Source of the DNA: Nitrososphaerales archaeon
Lineage (GTDB): Archaea > Thermoproteota > Nitrososphaeria > Nitrososphaerales > Gagatemarchaeaceae
DNA: 64,000 bases
Reading direction: 5' to 3'
NCBI GenBank assembly: GCA_030039795.1
Contig: JASHUU010000088.1
Location: 44,684-108,683, forward strand
In this document: piece after piece, positions 37,362 to 45,107 of the stretch
Position numbering within the stretch: the stretch's first letter is position 1
Layout: each line of letters opens with the position of its first letter
Position numbers and translations under genes: made by a program
Notes under the pieces: model-generated
The model's input: the letters and a program-made list of their open reading frames with translations, nothing else
Told to the model about the DNA's origin: nothing
Databases searched by the model: none

Positions 37362-37901
37362 TCAGTATGGCGACGAAGGCGCCTTCTCGCCCTTTCCCCT
37401 CGCTTCTGGCGCCTTGAGATTCCATCCGAGAGCCTTTCCGACCTCCTCTTCGGTCCTGGTCTTGACGAGCCGGACGGGCTCGTCACGCGTCCAGAGCCCC
37501 CTGGAGTTGATGATCAGCCCCCTGTCTCTCGCCTTTATCGTCATCCCTATGGTATGGCCCTTCGGCCCGGTCGCCCACATCAGCGTCACGCCCCACGAGT
37601 CCCTGTTCAGGCACAGGAAGAGGTTCACCTGCATCCCGCGGTACCTGAAGTTCGAGATGGTCTCGCCGAATGAGATGACCTCGCCGCCCATGCCCTCCAC
37701 CCTCGCGGCGACCTTGTCCTTCCACAGCCCGAAGCTGCTGCCGCGGGGGATGACGGCGATGTCGATGTCGTGCACGATGGGTTCCCTCCTCCGTATGCTG
37801 CCGGCGATAAGGCTCTTGGCGTAGAGGTCCTTCGTCAGTTTGAGGAAGTCCTTGGCCACGGACTCCGCCGACTCCAGGGTGAGGTCTCTCTTGAATGACA
37901 A
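37362..37901 (-). CDS. Minimal DNA polymerase family X-like nucleotidyltransferase
   Basis: AGSIRRREPIVHDIDIAVIP and YRGMQVNLFLCLNRDSWGVTLMWATGPKGHTIGMTIKARDRGLIINSRGLW align with the Pol beta palm (GSFRRG..GDID; VDIRLIP..GVLYFTGS..NEYTI); 179 aa. Confidence 0.8.
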   Translation of the reverse strand: MSFKRDLTLESAESVAKDFLKLTKDLYAKSLIAGSIRRREPIVHDIDIAVIPRGSSFGLWKDKVAARVEGMGGEVISFGETISNFRYRGMQVNLFLCLNRDSWGVTLMWATGPKGHTIGMTIKARDRGLIINSRGLWTRDEPVRLVKTRTEEEVGKALGWNLKAPEARGKGEKAPSSPY

Positions 37902-37911
37902 GCGCGGACGC

Positions 37912-38745
37912 CTAGCTGAACTGCGAGAAGAGGCATTCCTCGGGAGTCTTGTCGTGCCTCACCCTGAGGATGAACGGGGCTCTGAGCTTCCTGTCCCGGG
38001 TCAACTCCTGGAACCTCACTTCCACTACAGAGCCCTTCTTCACTTGCCTGGGGTCAACGCCTTCGACCGTGGAGCCTACGTTGCCGATGCCCACTTCCCG
38101 GCCGTCGTCGTCGCACACTGCGACCGACCATGACCTCGGGACGCCCGTCCTCTTCATCTCCGCGGTCTCCACTATCGCGGTCACGAAGCAGTCTATCGTG
38201 TCGAACCTCTTCAGCTTGAGCCAAGAGCTTGCTTGCCCGTAGCTGGAGGCGGGGTTCTTCACCACTATGCCCTCCCTCCCTTCGTTGACCATCTTGTCCC
38301 TGAAGGCGGTGATGCCTTCCGTCGTCCTAGCCGTCGTGAACGGGACCTCAAGCTCCGTCCCCTCGAGTATCTCTCTGAGTATCTTCTTACGCTCGGCAAG
38401 AGGCTTCGCCCTTACGTCCCTGTCGTCAACCTGGAGGACGTCGAACAGGAACATCCCCTTCGACTCGCGTGCGACGTACTCTCCGTCGAGTATCATGCGG
38501 TGGGGCGCATGGAGGAACTCGGTGATGCGGGAGAAGACCTGCGGGGTCGACCTGGGGGTGTAGACCCCGCCGTGCTTGCTGGAGAGGACCAGCTTCTCTC
38601 CGCTCTTGAAGAGGAACACGCGTATGCCGTCGTACTTGGCCTCGCAGATGGCGGGGAGGGGGTTCTTCGCCACCCAGTCCCCCAGGTCCCTCTTGACCGC
38701 CTTGGCGTAGTTCTCCGCTACGTAGTTCGGGAGCTCGTCGCTCAT
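37912..38745 (-). CDS. Minimal ATP-dependent DNA ligase (LigD/LigC-like)
   Basis: EAKYDGIRV (motif I), DGEYV (III), FLFDVLQ (IIIa), EGIVVKNP (IV), WLKLKRF (V) plus OB domain; 277 aa. Confidence 0.9.
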   Translation of the reverse strand: MSDELPNYVAENYAKAVKRDLGDWVAKNPLPAICEAKYDGIRVFLFKSGEKLVLSSKHGGVYTPRSTPQVFSRITEFLHAPHRMILDGEYVARESKGMFLFDVLQVDDRDVRAKPLAERKKILREILEGTELEVPFTTARTTEGITAFRDKMVNEGREGIVVKNPASSYGQASSWLKLKRFDTIDCFVTAIVETAEMKRTGVPRSWSVAVCDDDGREVGIGNVGSTVEGVDPRQVKKGSVVEVRFQELTRDRKLRAPFILRVRHDKTPEECLFSQFS

Positions 38746-38747
38746 CT

Positions 38748-39605
38748 CTACTTCGAGAGGACTACCTTGGCCTTCTTCCGTGCGACGGGGACGGCCGGAA
38801 GCCTCTGCGAGCCCTTCTCCTCGACCAGGGCCCAGGCGTCGTCCAGCTTCAGGATGCCCTCGCTCAGGCCCATGAGCAGCCAGAGCCGCCCATCCTTCCT
38901 CTCGTACGGGTAGATGACGCTGGTGTAGAAGTTGTACCCGCGCCCCCATGAGAAGAACGCGACCAAGGCCATGTCCTTTTCGATGAGGTATCTCGCGAGC
39001 TGCGTGACCCTGGACGCGGTCTCCCCCACCTTCTTGTCGGTGTCGGGCGCCAGCTGGTAGACCTCCTTGAACTTGTATTCCGAGACGCGGTCGAGCGGGA
39101 CGAATCCGTCCTTCTCCACCTCCACCTTGGTCGTCCTTTCGAAGGGCTCGACCTCCTCGCCTTCCTGCTTGTCCATCGTCTGGCTGAGCGGCACTTCAAT
39201 CCATTTGCCGGTGAACTCCAGCTCGTACTTCAGAAAGTATCTCTTCTCGTTCCTGACGGTGATAGGGAAGTCGCCCTTGTACCTGACGAACTTTCTCGCC
39301 TCCTCGGGCGAGACCTCCTGGAGGTCGAGCCGCTCCCCGCCTGGGCCTTCCTTGTAGCGGAAGATTCTCGGGACCTCCCTGCTGACGACCTCCTTTCCCG
39401 TCTTCTTGTCTAACTTGATGACCTTCACCGGCTGGAGGTCGCCGTGAGCCTTGGCCGCCCGAAGGTGGTACTCGACCGCCCCGAGGCCGAGCGTTGGGAT
39501 GTCCAGGCTGAGCACCCCCCTCCATGAGGCCCTGCTGGCGGCTGCGCTCTCCGCCTGCTTCTCGACCTCCGTGAAGATGTCTTTCTTTGGCAACCCTGAC
39601 CTCAA
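38748..39605 (-). CDS. Ku-like DNA end-binding protein
   Basis: RASWRGVLSLDIPTLGLGAVEY (cf. bacterial Ku RAIWxGxISFGLVxVPVxLY) and DGFVPLDRVSEYKFKEVYQLAPDTDKKVGETASRVTQLARYLIEKDMALVAFFSWG (Ku core); 2 bp upstream of ligase; TTG start. Confidence 0.72.
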   Translation of the reverse strand: MRSGLPKKDIFTEVEKQAESAAASRASWRGVLSLDIPTLGLGAVEYHLRAAKAHGDLQPVKVIKLDKKTGKEVVSREVPRIFRYKEGPGGERLDLQEVSPEEARKFVRYKGDFPITVRNEKRYFLKYELEFTGKWIEVPLSQTMDKQEGEEVEPFERTTKVEVEKDGFVPLDRVSEYKFKEVYQLAPDTDKKVGETASRVTQLARYLIEKDMALVAFFSWGRGYNFYTSVIYPYERKDGRLWLLMGLSEGILKLDDAWALVEEKGSQRLPAVPVARKKAKVVLSK

Positions 39606-39621
39606 GCGCGCTTTAGGATAT

Positions 39622-40449
39622 TTAATGTTGCCAAGCTGCCGCAGGCAAAGCCTTCTTCCTGCCCCGACCGTCTTCGCGGTCCTCGAGCGTCCCGAGGTAG
39701 ATCATGGTGTCATAGTGCAGTCGGAATCTCTGGCGTGCTCGCCCACGTGCGGCCCTGCGCGCTTCGTCCTCGAGTGTCGCCCACCGCGGAGTGCCGCGGC
39801 GCGGCATATACGACGCGGACGCGAGCCTGCCGAGCAGCCCAGTGAGGCTCAGGACCTGCACGTTTGGGACTACGAACTTCGCCGGTGCGCCTCGCCCGAA
39901 GAACTCCGACATGCTCGTCTCGTCGAGGTCAGGCACCCGCCTGCTCTCGACCGAGTACGTCTTGACCAGCCGAGAGTAGAGGCGCCCGGCGCCGCCGGTC
40001 TCCTTCCTCAGGTTGTAGACCACGCAGACGCGCTTCGGCTCGCGGAGAACCCTCGCGAACTCCGACCTAGCCCTGCGAAGGTCGAACCAGTGCAGCGCTT
40101 GGCCGACGACCACTAGGTCTGCGCTCTCGGAAGGGAGGCCCGTCGCTTCGGCCCTGCCGTCTACGCTCACGAACCCGGCGAACCGGCGCGCCAGCCGACT
40201 CGTGGCAAAGCCGCGCATCTCGGGGTTTGGCTCCACGCAGAGCACCTTGTTCCCATTCAGGAGGAACAGCTCTGACAGTATCCCTGTGCCCGATCCGACG
40301 TCGGCTATGGTCCAGGTCTTGTCCAGCCCGATCTGCTCCTTCAGCGTGGTCACGACCGAGCGCGGGTAGCCCGGCCGATACTTCGAATAGTCGGCGGCCT
40401 TTCCGGAGAACCTTCGAGAGTAGTCGGCCGTCGACTCGGTCGCCCGCAC
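39622..40449 (-). CDS. Class I SAM-dependent methyltransferase
   Basis: TIADVGSGTGILSELFLLNGNKVLCVEPN..SADLVVVGQALHWFDLRRARSEFARVLRE; GTG start chosen. Confidence 0.85.
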   Translation of the reverse strand: MRATESTADYSRRFSGKAADYSKYRPGYPRSVVTTLKEQIGLDKTWTIADVGSGTGILSELFLLNGNKVLCVEPNPEMRGFATSRLARRFAGFVSVDGRAEATGLPSESADLVVVGQALHWFDLRRARSEFARVLREPKRVCVVYNLRKETGGAGRLYSRLVKTYSVESRRVPDLDETSMSEFFGRGAPAKFVVPNVQVLSLTGLLGRLASASYMPRRGTPRWATLEDEARRAARGRARQRFRLHYDTMIYLGTLEDREDGRGRKKALPAAAWQH

Positions 40450-40556
40450 AAGAGGCGCCCCGACCGCTCTCCTATTAGTCCGCCGGCCAGGCGCATTTGT
40501 TTTGACCACTTGTCGCCATAGCTTGATATACAAACGGCGGCGACGCCCCGCTCGCG

Positions 40557-42644
40557 TTGCAGGCGGCTCCCCGCAGGGTAAAGACAATTTACAGCGTCAT
40601 CGCCTCGCCCCAGAGGCTCGAAATCCTCAGGATCCTGAACATCAAGGGCCCGCTGACCTACAGCGCGCTGAAGACGCTGGCGGGCTTCAAGTCGAAGAAG
40701 GAGTCGGGGAAGTTCGCCTACCACCTGAGAAAGCTCGTCAAGCAGCTCCTGATCCAGCTCAACAGGCAGGAACGCAAGTACACAGTGACCAACCTCGGCA
40801 GGCTCGTGCTCAACCTGACCCGCCAGATCGAGGAGCAGTCACTCGTGGAGAGCGGGAAGCTGTACGTGAGGACATCCCACCAGACGCTGGAGGAGTTCAA
40901 CGCGAACAAGATCCTCCAGTCTCTCGTGAAGGAGGCCGGCATGCCCGTCGAGCTGGCCCAGAAGATCACAAGCGAGACCGAGTCCAGGCTCTACAAGTTC
41001 CAGACCCAGTACCTCACCGCGCCGCTCATCCGCGAAATCGTGAACGCGCTCCTAGTGGAGCACAGCATGGAGGAGTACAGGCACAAGCTGACCAGGCTAG
41101 GGATGCCCATCTACGACGTGACCCAGCTGCTGGGCAGGGCGGGAGACGACGGCGGGAACGTGGAGTCACTGGTGCACCAGACAGGCAAGCAGGTCTTCTC
41201 GGAGTATCTCCTCCTTGAGCAGCTGCCGAGGGACGTGGCAGACGCGCACCTTTCAGGCGACATGCACATCACAAACGCAGGGTCATGGGGGCTGACGCCC
41301 GACACGGTGTTCGTGGACCTGATCTCGGTCAGAAGCGCGGGCCTCAATCCCAGGGGAAGGATCCCCAACTGCCCCATGATACCCAGTCCCGAGAACGCCG
41401 AGAGGGCGCTCAACATAGTCCTGAACATGTCTTCGATGCTGGCGAGGGAAGCTTCAGACGAGATCACCTTCAGCAACTTCCTGCAGTACCTCGCGCCGTT
41501 CTGCAGGTCCAAGGGCAAGAGAGAGCTGGAGGCGCTGCTGCTGCGGTTCCTGGAGGACCTCAGCTCGCCAGTCTCAGGGGCGCAGAGCCCGGCGATAAGC
41601 CTGGAGCTGAACCCCTTCAAGCACGACGACGCCGGGCGAGAGGTGCTCGACAGGACGCTGGACGCCACGCTGGGCGCGTACAGGACATTCGTCGCAGAGA
41701 CGCCGAGGCCCGACGTCAGGCTCCTGCTGGCCAAGCCGAACAGGGTCGACGACACCAAGACGCTCAAGGACGCGGCCTCGATAATATTCAACGGCGGACG
41801 GATGGCGTTCTTCTCATCGGACCAGAGGAGGAGCTTCCTAGGCCTGAACGCCAACGTCCTCTCCGAAGGGTCGCAGGCGGACAACATCAGCGTGCTTCAC
41901 GGCCTGAGCCTCGACCTTCCGAGGCTGGCGTACGACTCGAACCAGGACGAGACGTACTTCAGGGCGAAGCTGGCGCTCCTCATCGGCGTGGCCTCTGACG
42001 CCCTGTCCACGAGGAGGAGGCTCATCGAGAGGACGCTGAAGCGGGGCCTGCTCCCGTCCCTGGCGGCCGGGTCCGACTCCGTCACGTCGGACAACATGCC
42101 ACTGATAATGAACATGGTAGGCATCGAAGAGACGCTGGCGAGCCTCATCAGGGACCCTACGACGGGGTCGCGCTTCGAGCTCGCCGACAAGATCGTGGGC
42201 ACTGCCACGCAGGTGGCAGAGGAGAAGTCGACGAAGATAGACAGGCTGGGGATGGCGATGCTCGACCTCGACGGCGCGGGGAGGCTGGCGGCCCTGGACG
42301 CAGAGAAGTACGGGAAGGCCAACCTTCAGCCCATGGGGAAGGGCGGATACACGCAGGCGCCGAGGCTGGTCCTCGCCGACCTAGAGAACAAGGAGAAGAT
42401 GGACTACGTCGCGAAGCTCTCCGGAGGACTCCATGGGGGCCTCTCAGTCACGCTGGACGGGTCGTCCGAGGAGGTGCGCGGCGTGTACAACGTGATACTG
42501 AACGCGACGCCGAAGCTTCCGTACTTCAAAGTCGACAGGACGGTCTCGTTCTGCAGGAACTGCGGCGCCAAGCTGGTGCGCAACACGGCCAGGTGCAGCC
42601 GGTGCAAGTCCGTGGCCATGTCGCAGTATTCCACCGCGTCGTGA
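40557..42644 (+). CDS. Winged-helix + ATP-cone + NrdD-like domain + zinc-ribbon fusion (candidate RNR regulator)
   Basis: N-terminal ArsR-like HTH (ASPQRLEILRILNIKGPLTYSALKTLAGF), ATP-cone-like segment (VRTSHQTLEEFNANKILQSLVKEAGMPVELAQKITSETESRLYKF), NrdD-like body, CRNCGAKLVRNTARCSRC tail; no glycyl-radical RVxGY motif seen. Confidence 0.75.
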   Translation: MQAAPRRVKTIYSVIASPQRLEILRILNIKGPLTYSALKTLAGFKSKKESGKFAYHLRKLVKQLLIQLNRQERKYTVTNLGRLVLNLTRQIEEQSLVESGKLYVRTSHQTLEEFNANKILQSLVKEAGMPVELAQKITSETESRLYKFQTQYLTAPLIREIVNALLVEHSMEEYRHKLTRLGMPIYDVTQLLGRAGDDGGNVESLVHQTGKQVFSEYLLLEQLPRDVADAHLSGDMHITNAGSWGLTPDTVFVDLISVRSAGLNPRGRIPNCPMIPSPENAERALNIVLNMSSMLAREASDEITFSNFLQYLAPFCRSKGKRELEALLLRFLEDLSSPVSGAQSPAISLELNPFKHDDAGREVLDRTLDATLGAYRTFVAETPRPDVRLLLAKPNRVDDTKTLKDAASIIFNGGRMAFFSSDQRRSFLGLNANVLSEGSQADNISVLHGLSLDLPRLAYDSNQDETYFRAKLALLIGVASDALSTRRRLIERTLKRGLLPSLAAGSDSVTSDNMPLIMNMVGIEETLASLIRDPTTGSRFELADKIVGTATQVAEEKSTKIDRLGMAMLDLDGAGRLAALDAEKYGKANLQPMGKGGYTQAPRLVLADLENKEKMDYVAKLSGGLHGGLSVTLDGSSEEVRGVYNVILNATPKLPYFKVDRTVSFCRNCGAKLVRNTARCSRCKSVAMSQYSTAS

Positions 42645-42794
42645 CCGCAGGCACAAGCGCGCCGTGTCAAAAGGAATGGACTCGTGTGCACTTCATGTGG
42701 AGCGGCCAATCACTTTCGCTCCTGCGTCATTGTCAATCTCGGTCATCCCAAGGGCAACATATATCACCGGGAGCATGGGGTAAGGGCCAACGTT

Positions 42795-45107
42795 ATGACG
42801 TCGATAGTTGAAGAACCACGCGACTCTCCGGATGTCGGAAAGTCGAAGTCTGAAGTAAGGATTCCCGAAGAGACGCTCGCGGCGTTCGGAGGAGATGAAC
42901 TGCGCGCGAGGGTCTTCTACGAAAAGTACGCCTTGAGAGACTCGCACGGGCAGCAGGTCGAGAAGACCCCGGACGGCATGTGGCGCAGGGTGGCGAAGGA
43001 GCTAGCCTCGGTCGAGCTGGACGACGAGAGAAGGCGGGAGTGGACGTCAAGGTTCTACTGGCTCCTGGAGGACTACCGGTTCGTCCCAGGAGGCAGGATA
43101 CTGTTCGGTGCAGGCCAGCCAAGGAAGTCTACGCTGCTAAACTGCTACTTCTTCCGGATCCGTGGAGACTCGATCGAAGAGATATTCGACTGGTGCAAGG
43201 AGGCGGCCAGGACATATAGCTTCGGAGGCGGCGTGGGGACAGACATCTCGGTCCTGAGGCCGAAGGGCGCGCCGGTGAACAACGCGGCGATCTACAGCTC
43301 CGGCTCCGTGTCCTTCATGGAGCTCCTTTCGACCACCACGGGGACGATAGGCCAGGCGGGGAGGAGAGGGGCGCTGATGATCACCATCAGGGTGGACCAT
43401 CCCGACGTCATGGACTTCATCGGTGTGAAGAAGGACCTCAGGAGGGTCAACTATGCCAACATCTCGGTGAAAATTACAGACGAGTTCATGAAGGCCGTAG
43501 AGAGGGACGAGGACTTCCTCCTGCACTTCAAGAACGAGAAGGTGGAGATGGAGCGGACAGTCAGGGCCACGGACGTCTGGAAGTCGCTGGTGAGGGGCGC
43601 GTGGCAGTCGGCCGAGCCTGGTGTCCTCTTCTGGGACACGATCAAGAGAGAGTCGACGACAGAGTACAACGGCATGGAGGTGCAAGGAGTGAACCCATGT
43701 TCAGAACAGACTCTAGAGTCATACGGCTGCTGCTGTCTGGGCTCGGTCAACCTCAGCGCCTTCGTGAGAGAGCCATTCACTGAAAGGGCGAGCATCGACT
43801 GGGACTCCCTCACCCGCGCGGCTCAGTACGGGGTGAGGTTCCTGGACAACGTGCTGGACTACAACGCGGAAAGACATCCGCTCCCGCAGCAGAAGGTGGC
43901 GTCCCTGCACAGCAGGAGGATCGGCGTCGGGATAACGGGCCTCGGGGACATGCTCATCAAGCTGGGCCTGAAGTACGACGACGACTCGACGATCGAGTTC
44001 GTGGACCACCTCTTCGAGAGGATAAAGAACGTCATCTACGACTACTCGTCGGACCTGGGCAAGGAGAAGGGGAGCTTCCCCGCCTTCGACGCCGAGAAGC
44101 ACCTGGCGCAGCCCTTCATCTCCAGGCTGGACGAGAAGGTCAAGGAGAAGATAAGGTCGCAGGGCATACGGAACGCCGCGGTGACGACCATCCCGCCCGT
44201 CGGGTCCGGGTCGATCCTCGCAGGGACCAGCAGCGGCGTAGAGCCGGTCTTCGCGCTCTTCTACACCAGGAGGAGCAAGTCGCTGAGCGAGGGCGAGTTC
44301 AAGGTCTTCCACCCGCTGGTCAAGGAGTACATGGCGGCCACCGGGGCCAAGAGCGAGGGGAAGCTGCCCAACTACTTCGTCACGTCGCACCAGATCAGGC
44401 CCGAGATGAGGGTCAGGATGCAGGCGACCATCCAGAAGCACATCGACACTGCGATATCCAGCACAGTCAACCTCCCCCAGGAGATCACCACGGAGGAGGT
44501 GGAGAGGATCTACATGCTCGCCTGGAAGTTGGGGTGCAAGGGCATCACCGTCTACAGGGAAGGGAGCAGGGAAGGCATCCTGGAGACGGAGAAGGTGACG
44601 AAGAAGGCCGAGGCCCCCGCGCCCAAGGCGCAGTTCGAGAGGCCCAGGATGATGGATGGGAAGACGCTGAAGCTGAGGCTCCCCCAGGGAGGCATCTACC
44701 TGACCGCGAACCTGGTCAACGGGGACGTCAAGGAGGTCTTCGTCACGCTGGGCAAGTCGGGAGGGGACGAGAAGGCCGACGCGGAGGCCCTCGGGAGGCT
44801 GGTAAGCCTCTATCTCCAGCACGGAGGAGACGTAAAGAGCGTCATCTCCACGCTGAAGGGGATCAAGGGCAAGTACGTCTCGTGGGACGAGGGCATACAG
44901 CTGCTCTCGATACCTGACGCGGTGGCCAAGGCGCTCGAACTCCTGACCGCGAACCACGTGGTCAAGGAGGCGGGGCTGCCTGCGGAGGCGTCGTCGCCCG
45001 GCCGGGAGGCGAAGGGCGGGACGTGCCCCGACTGCCGCGAGAACAGCCTAATCTTCGAGAACGGCTGCTACAGATGCGGCAACTGCGGCTACTCAAAGTG
45101 CGAGTAG
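42795..45107 (+). CDS. nrdJ: Class II (adenosylcobalamin-dependent) ribonucleotide reductase
   Basis: STLLNCYFF, SYGCCCLGSVNLSAFV, TTIPPVGSGSILAGTSSGVEPVFAL; TSCPD-like C-terminus and CPDCRENSLIFENGCYRCGNCGYSKCE zinc ribbon. Confidence 0.92.
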   Translation: MTSIVEEPRDSPDVGKSKSEVRIPEETLAAFGGDELRARVFYEKYALRDSHGQQVEKTPDGMWRRVAKELASVELDDERRREWTSRFYWLLEDYRFVPGGRILFGAGQPRKSTLLNCYFFRIRGDSIEEIFDWCKEAARTYSFGGGVGTDISVLRPKGAPVNNAAIYSSGSVSFMELLSTTTGTIGQAGRRGALMITIRVDHPDVMDFIGVKKDLRRVNYANISVKITDEFMKAVERDEDFLLHFKNEKVEMERTVRATDVWKSLVRGAWQSAEPGVLFWDTIKRESTTEYNGMEVQGVNPCSEQTLESYGCCCLGSVNLSAFVREPFTERASIDWDSLTRAAQYGVRFLDNVLDYNAERHPLPQQKVASLHSRRIGVGITGLGDMLIKLGLKYDDDSTIEFVDHLFERIKNVIYDYSSDLGKEKGSFPAFDAEKHLAQPFISRLDEKVKEKIRSQGIRNAAVTTIPPVGSGSILAGTSSGVEPVFALFYTRRSKSLSEGEFKVFHPLVKEYMAATGAKSEGKLPNYFVTSHQIRPEMRVRMQATIQKHIDTAISSTVNLPQEITTEEVERIYMLAWKLGCKGITVYREGSREGILETEKVTKKAEAPAPKAQFERPRMMDGKTLKLRLPQGGIYLTANLVNGDVKEVFVTLGKSGGDEKADAEALGRLVSLYLQHGGDVKSVISTLKGIKGKYVSWDEGIQLLSIPDAVAKALELLTANHVVKEAGLPAEASSPGREAKGGTCPDCRENSLIFENGCYRCGNCGYSKCE

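Follow-up and report, generated by a model that had tools for sequence, protein, structure and literature searches.

The question raised by this locus is whether end joining has been put together in a soil or groundwater archaeon from a set of parts other than the known one. Few archaea have NHEJ, and the kind known among them uses a bacterial-type primase-polymerase. Within the 64,000-nucleotide stretch of DNA that was analysed (the window), three adjacent genes had been predicted to form an NHEJ operon encoding a Ku-like protein, a minimal ATP-dependent ligase and a mini family-X polymerase (mini-PolX). We consider it highly probable that these three genes, here called the triad, form a compact NHEJ module, in which Ku and a dedicated ligase are joined by a PolX protein in the place of the LigD polymerase domain (PolDom).

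Layout and conservation of the locus

The three genes are co-directional and all lie on the minus strand, with the spacing given in the original prediction. The Ku-like ORF (38748-39605, 285 amino acids from a TTG at 39605) is followed after 2 nucleotides (38746-38747) by the ligase ORF (37912-38745, ATG start, 277 amino acids), which is followed after 10 nucleotides (37902-37911) by the PolX-like ORF (37362-37901, TTG start, 179 amino acids). The Ku N-terminus in relatives reads [M/L]PKKDIF..., and because alignment with these relatives points to it, a second TTG at 39593 is more likely to be the Ku start, giving a protein of 281 amino acids (38748-39593). The TATA-like element noted before the Ku gene was confirmed. 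It reads TTAAATATCC (39616-39625, minus strand) and lies approximately 27 nucleotides upstream of the preferred start, a spacing that fits a leaderless archaeal transcript; most related loci have a TTAAWTAT-like element at this position.

Upstream of Ku, the minus-strand gene at 39622-40587 encodes a SAM methyltransferase with a weak PADLOC match to mads_2; it is probably a generic methyltransferase, and was not found as a conserved neighbour of the triad in related loci. On the plus strand, 40557-42644 encodes an anaerobic ribonucleotide reductase-like protein (NRDD) with an N-terminal winged-helix-like domain, the fused HTH being unusual, and a second ribonucleotide reductase-like ORF (42684-45107) follows directly after it.

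Conserved clustering in relatives had been proposed as a check on the prediction, and Ku, ligase and PolX proved to be contiguous in 16 genomes (the window genome G000, and G003, G005, G007, G010, G023, G031, G037, G038, G040, G042, G076, G091, G097, L021 and L022), the Ku reading frame being broken in G040. Partial or interrupted triads occur in further genomes. Within a single archaeal order, two or more families have the triad, and mini-PolX occurs in a third as well; public records label the relatives Nitrososphaerales or Thaumarchaeota. A profile of the window-type Ku, run over 400 genomes of the phylum, gave only two matches, both in the same genus, and none outside the order. Values of pN/pS were 0.11-0.49 in all three genes, indicating purifying selection. 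Together with the domain scores and the gene order kept in most related loci, this selection confirms that the three-gene locus is real and not a product of chance.

Several relatives carry variants of the locus. In one, a 190-amino-acid ORF of unrecognised type (L015:7726-8298) is inserted between ligase and PolX. In G025 (L121 and L122), Ku appears to be interrupted near its 3' end, with the last residues, the ligase and PolX on another contig, owing to either an insertion or an assembly break. A divergent version (L130, L131 and L048 in G084; L133 in G041) has a Ku 52-57% and a ligase 46% identical to those of the window; its PolX lies elsewhere or was not seen, and the Ku frame is broken in L130. 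A decayed ligase–PolX remnant with frame breaks (L134 in G053) suggests that the triad was lost there recently.

The Ku-like protein and the ligase

The initial Ku call was made at the level of motifs, and was upheld by profile and structural comparisons. The window protein matched Pfam Ku (PF02735) at E = 1.3e-7, its 32.1 bits lying above the cut-off of 25. Every one of the 14 sequences in the Ku-like family alignment matched as well (E <= 0.1), some of them below that cut-off. From 15 canonical archaeal Ku loci, 1075 ORFs were searched with an HMM of the window-type Ku, and the eight top-ranking proteins were canonical Ku; in the reverse search, with a canonical-Ku HMM against 2062 ORFs, window-type Ku filled the top 15 places. 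Single E-values in these reciprocal searches were weak, and it is the ranking that counts. Alignment of the two profiles with hhalign gave E = 1.5e-4; with the ligase and with PolX as controls, the values were 0.28 and 0.52. The AlphaFold model, made from nine close homologues, was poor (pLDDT 40, pTM 0.38, TM about 0.25), so that its geometry was left aside and only the identity of its Foldseek matches was used; among 350,542 PDB chains, the top 50 matches were all Ku70/80 complexes or bacterial Ku. The structural check suggested originally thus spoke for Ku through what was matched, while the model itself fell short. A sequence-only PDB search with the window Ku returned no Ku, only chance Nudix matches.

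These comparisons identify the first protein as a real but very divergent Ku, with predicted binding to DNA ends. Window-type Ku scored about 20-32 bits against Pfam Ku, compared with 131-165 bits for the canonical Ku of the phylum, and domain scans found no vWA domain in the window protein. Its score of 14.8 bits against the bacterial NHEJ Ku equivalog TIGR02772 is below the curated cut-off of 150, from which we judge that it is not a bacterial-type equivalog.

The second gene, as predicted, encodes by homology a minimal ATP-dependent DNA ligase, and its catalytic motifs are intact. Pfam DNA_ligase_A_M (PF01068) matched at E = 2e-25, well above the cut-off, while OB models scored below theirs; the architecture is that of a nucleotidyltransferase domain plus an OB domain, without an N-terminal DNA-binding domain. 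The motifs K37xDG (motif I), REGIVVK, SWLKLKR and RVRHDK are present, and K37, D39, G40 and the C-terminal RHDK are invariant across the family alignment. Domain scans revealed neither BRCT nor LigIV-type features. The best NCBIfam model was NHEJ_ligase_lig (TIGR02779; 102.2 bits, below the cut-off of 227.75). With the family ligase profile (A3), canonical archaeal NHEJ ligases scored 63-96 bits and a replicative-type ligase 56 bits; identity of the operon ligase to the canonical archaeal NHEJ ligases was 23-30%. Since another contig of the window genome encodes a separate ligase in a 664-amino-acid frame, the one in the operon is a dedicated enzyme.

Mini-PolX, the polymerase slot and linked genes

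Both sequence and model identify the third gene product as a family-X protein. The PolX thumb model of Pfam matched the 179-amino-acid window protein at E = 6.3e-9, a PDB search gave Thermus thermophilus PolX and ASFV Pol X as the nearest solved relatives, and the AF2 model, which was usable (pLDDT 72), had Foldseek matches to family-X polymerases exclusively. The protein consists of palm and thumb only; domain scans detected no 8-kDa, BRCT or PHP domain. Among mini-PolX proteins, GSxRR, D45/D47 (HDxD) and TGPKGHT vary little or not at all. The third catalytic Asp, however, is replaced by Asn93 in all 21 aligned mini-PolX homologues, whereas eight full-length PolX proteins of the same class in the alignment keep it (QVDLR or DADLL). 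In addition, mini-PolX has WA in place of the YF pair that contacts the nucleotide sugar. From the alignment, we take these positions to correspond to D256, Y271 and F272 of Pol beta.

The predicted polymerase therefore has the palm/thumb fold of family X but, in place of three carboxylates, a uniform D-D-N site, and because the third catalytic Asp is always Asn, ordinary gap-filling by mini-PolX is doubtful. PolX proteins with altered catalytic triads that have been tested were inactive as polymerases, and in these non-canonical prokaryotic enzymes the triad drifts while the PHP nuclease is kept (PMC9226535). Given that the mini-PolX site is uniform and PHP is absent, we read D-D-N as a selected, altered active site and not as decay.

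The polymerase complement differs between genomes with the two kinds of Ku. An AEP-type LigD polymerase lies beside Ku in five of five canonical-Ku genomes tested (G083, G090, G712, G626 and G644), while LigD PolDom was absent from the window genome and from 11 relatives bearing the triad or window-type Ku. Since PolDom is absent here and present in canonical-Ku genomes, mini-PolX appears to replace it, occupying the polymerase slot. Triad genomes also encode a canonical full-length PolX. A stand-alone LigD_N phosphoesterase is encoded in the window genome (contig C13, E = 5.4e-35), unlinked to the triad; within the same family, 14 of 17 genomes with the triad and 7 of 16 without it carry this gene (p = 0.03). 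The phosphoesterase was considered as a strict fourth partner and rejected, the association being weak and the gene occurring in Ku-less genomes as well.

A gene of the DUF72 family (PF01904) is the sole conserved neighbour of the triad. It adjoins the triad in eight genomes (G003, G010, G023, G027, G035, G097, L021 and L022), where its side and orientation vary, and also adjoins 8 of 15 canonical archaeal Ku–ligase loci. DUF72 genes near Ku loci include L117:11271-11984, L119:8503-9213, L116:7474-8184 and L105:5651-6388, the gene order in L105 being PolDom-Ku-Lig/PE-DUF72. In the window genome, DUF72 is unlinked to the triad (C74:14879-15580). Orthologues, defined by at least 62% identity, are present in 15 of 17 triad genomes, whereas 1 of 16 triad-less genomes has one, interrupted by a stop (p = 2e-6, without correction for phylogeny). 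DUF72 is also present in G043-G045, in which a Pfam search, less sensitive than the family profile, gave no Ku match; counting these three as triad-negative changes the latter figure to 4 of 19 (p = 7e-5). For one DUF72 protein, Tm1631, earlier modelling pointed to a DNA-binding enzyme resembling endonuclease IV (PMC3828134). We regard DUF72 as a candidate new component of NHEJ, and the link provides a testable role in break repair for a widespread family of unknown function.

Proposed mechanism and comparison with known systems

In the proposed module, the divergent Ku, presumably as a homodimer, would bind double-strand ends and recruit the dedicated minimal ligase, which would seal them. 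Standing in for the AEP-type PolDom, mini-PolX would bind aligned or gapped ends together with a nucleotide. The constant Asn in place of the third metal-binding Asp leads us to expect weak or specialised nucleotidyl transfer and a main role in aligning ends. If gaps had to be filled in bulk, the canonical full-length PolX could do so, and the unlinked DUF72 and stand-alone LigD-type phosphoesterase would probably process ends. We propose tentatively, as something slightly short of an even call, that the D-D-N mini-PolX is an end-alignment or nucleotide-sensing factor and that DUF72 is a shared, unrecognised end-processing enzyme of archaeal NHEJ.

It is also possible, though we think it rather doubtful, that mini-PolX is a normal gap-filling polymerase resembling Pol mu/lambda, in which Asn93 coordinates the metal, perhaps Mn2+. 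The invariance of GSxRR, HDxD and TGPKGHT speaks against a decayed site, and the architecture is like that of the 174-amino-acid ASFV Pol X, a working enzyme. Against this stand the constancy of Asn in 21 homologues, the Asp kept by full-length PolX of the same order, the change of the sugar pair, and the inactivity of those altered-triad enzymes that were assayed.

The nature of the locus as a repair operon may likewise be questioned. The triad is patchy in distribution, being missing from many genomes of the same genus, some of them nearly complete (the window genome itself is 79% complete), and its flanking genes vary, as might be expected of a mobile, defence or viral cassette. We consider this reading very unlikely, since PADLOC gave no match for the three triad proteins, viral contigs scanned for the triad Ku and PolX held no relatives, PHROGs returned a generic ligase only, and the three proteins have correlated distance matrices (r 0.50-0.73). 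Slightly less probable still is that the first protein is an unrelated, beta-rich non-Ku protein, leaving ligase and PolX as a unit of single-strand-break or base-excision repair. This would account for the fruitless direct comparison with PDB Ku, the sub-threshold family members and the poor AF2 model; however, four independent comparisons (family Pfam, reciprocal HMM, hhalign and Foldseek) recover Ku alone, and the DUF72 neighbour is common to triad and canonical NHEJ loci.

Acquisition of NHEJ from bacteria by Nitrososphaerales (PMC7554672), archaeo-prokaryotic NHEJ with archaeal Ku and AEP-type polymerases (PMC11936186, PMC4797286), co-occurrence of PolX with NHEJ in bacteria, and association of PolX and ligase genes in Methanomicrobia (PMC9226535) have all been reported. 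In the open-access journal literature that was searched, we found neither a Ku–ligase–mini-PolX operon described, nor the D-D-N change, nor any link between DUF72 and NHEJ. New here are the use of mini-PolX for PolDom, the invariant D-D-N site and the DUF72 association.

Among family-X proteins, mini-PolX shares its fold and its palm-plus-thumb architecture with ASFV Pol X, but differs from this enzyme and from full-length bacterial and archaeal PolX in the Asp-to-Asn and YF-to-WA changes and in lacking PHP and 8-kDa domains. Non-canonical prokaryotic PolX proteins also have altered catalytic triads, but these drift and are accompanied by PHP (PMC9226535), whereas the D-D-N site is uniform and belongs to a protein without PHP whose gene is a set part of one operon with those of Ku and ligase. 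The invariant Asp-to-Asn change offers a clean test of what role a family-X protein has at breaks besides polymerising.

Among end-joining systems, the triad resembles archaeo-prokaryotic NHEJ (separate Ku, Pol, Lig and PE in Methanocella paludicola; LigD in bacteria) in that Ku and a dedicated ATP-dependent ligase share an operon, most triad genomes have a stand-alone phosphoesterase, and DUF72 is a neighbour as in the canonical loci of the phylum. It differs in having mini-PolX instead of an AEP/PolDom, and in its far-diverged Ku and ligase. With eukaryotic c-NHEJ (Ku70/80, LigIV and Pol mu/lambda) it shares a parts list of Ku, ATP-dependent ligase and family-X protein, but not the vWA, BRCT and 8-kDa domains or a LigIV-type ligase. 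Common descent of a eukaryote-like arrangement was considered, and domain scans gave it no support from homology. Of the original description as distinct and eukaryote-like, the first part holds, the triad being a conserved NHEJ-type operon distinct from the LigD type, and the second holds as analogy only: the triad would represent a different assembly of end joining in soil and groundwater archaea, converging on the eukaryotic parts list.
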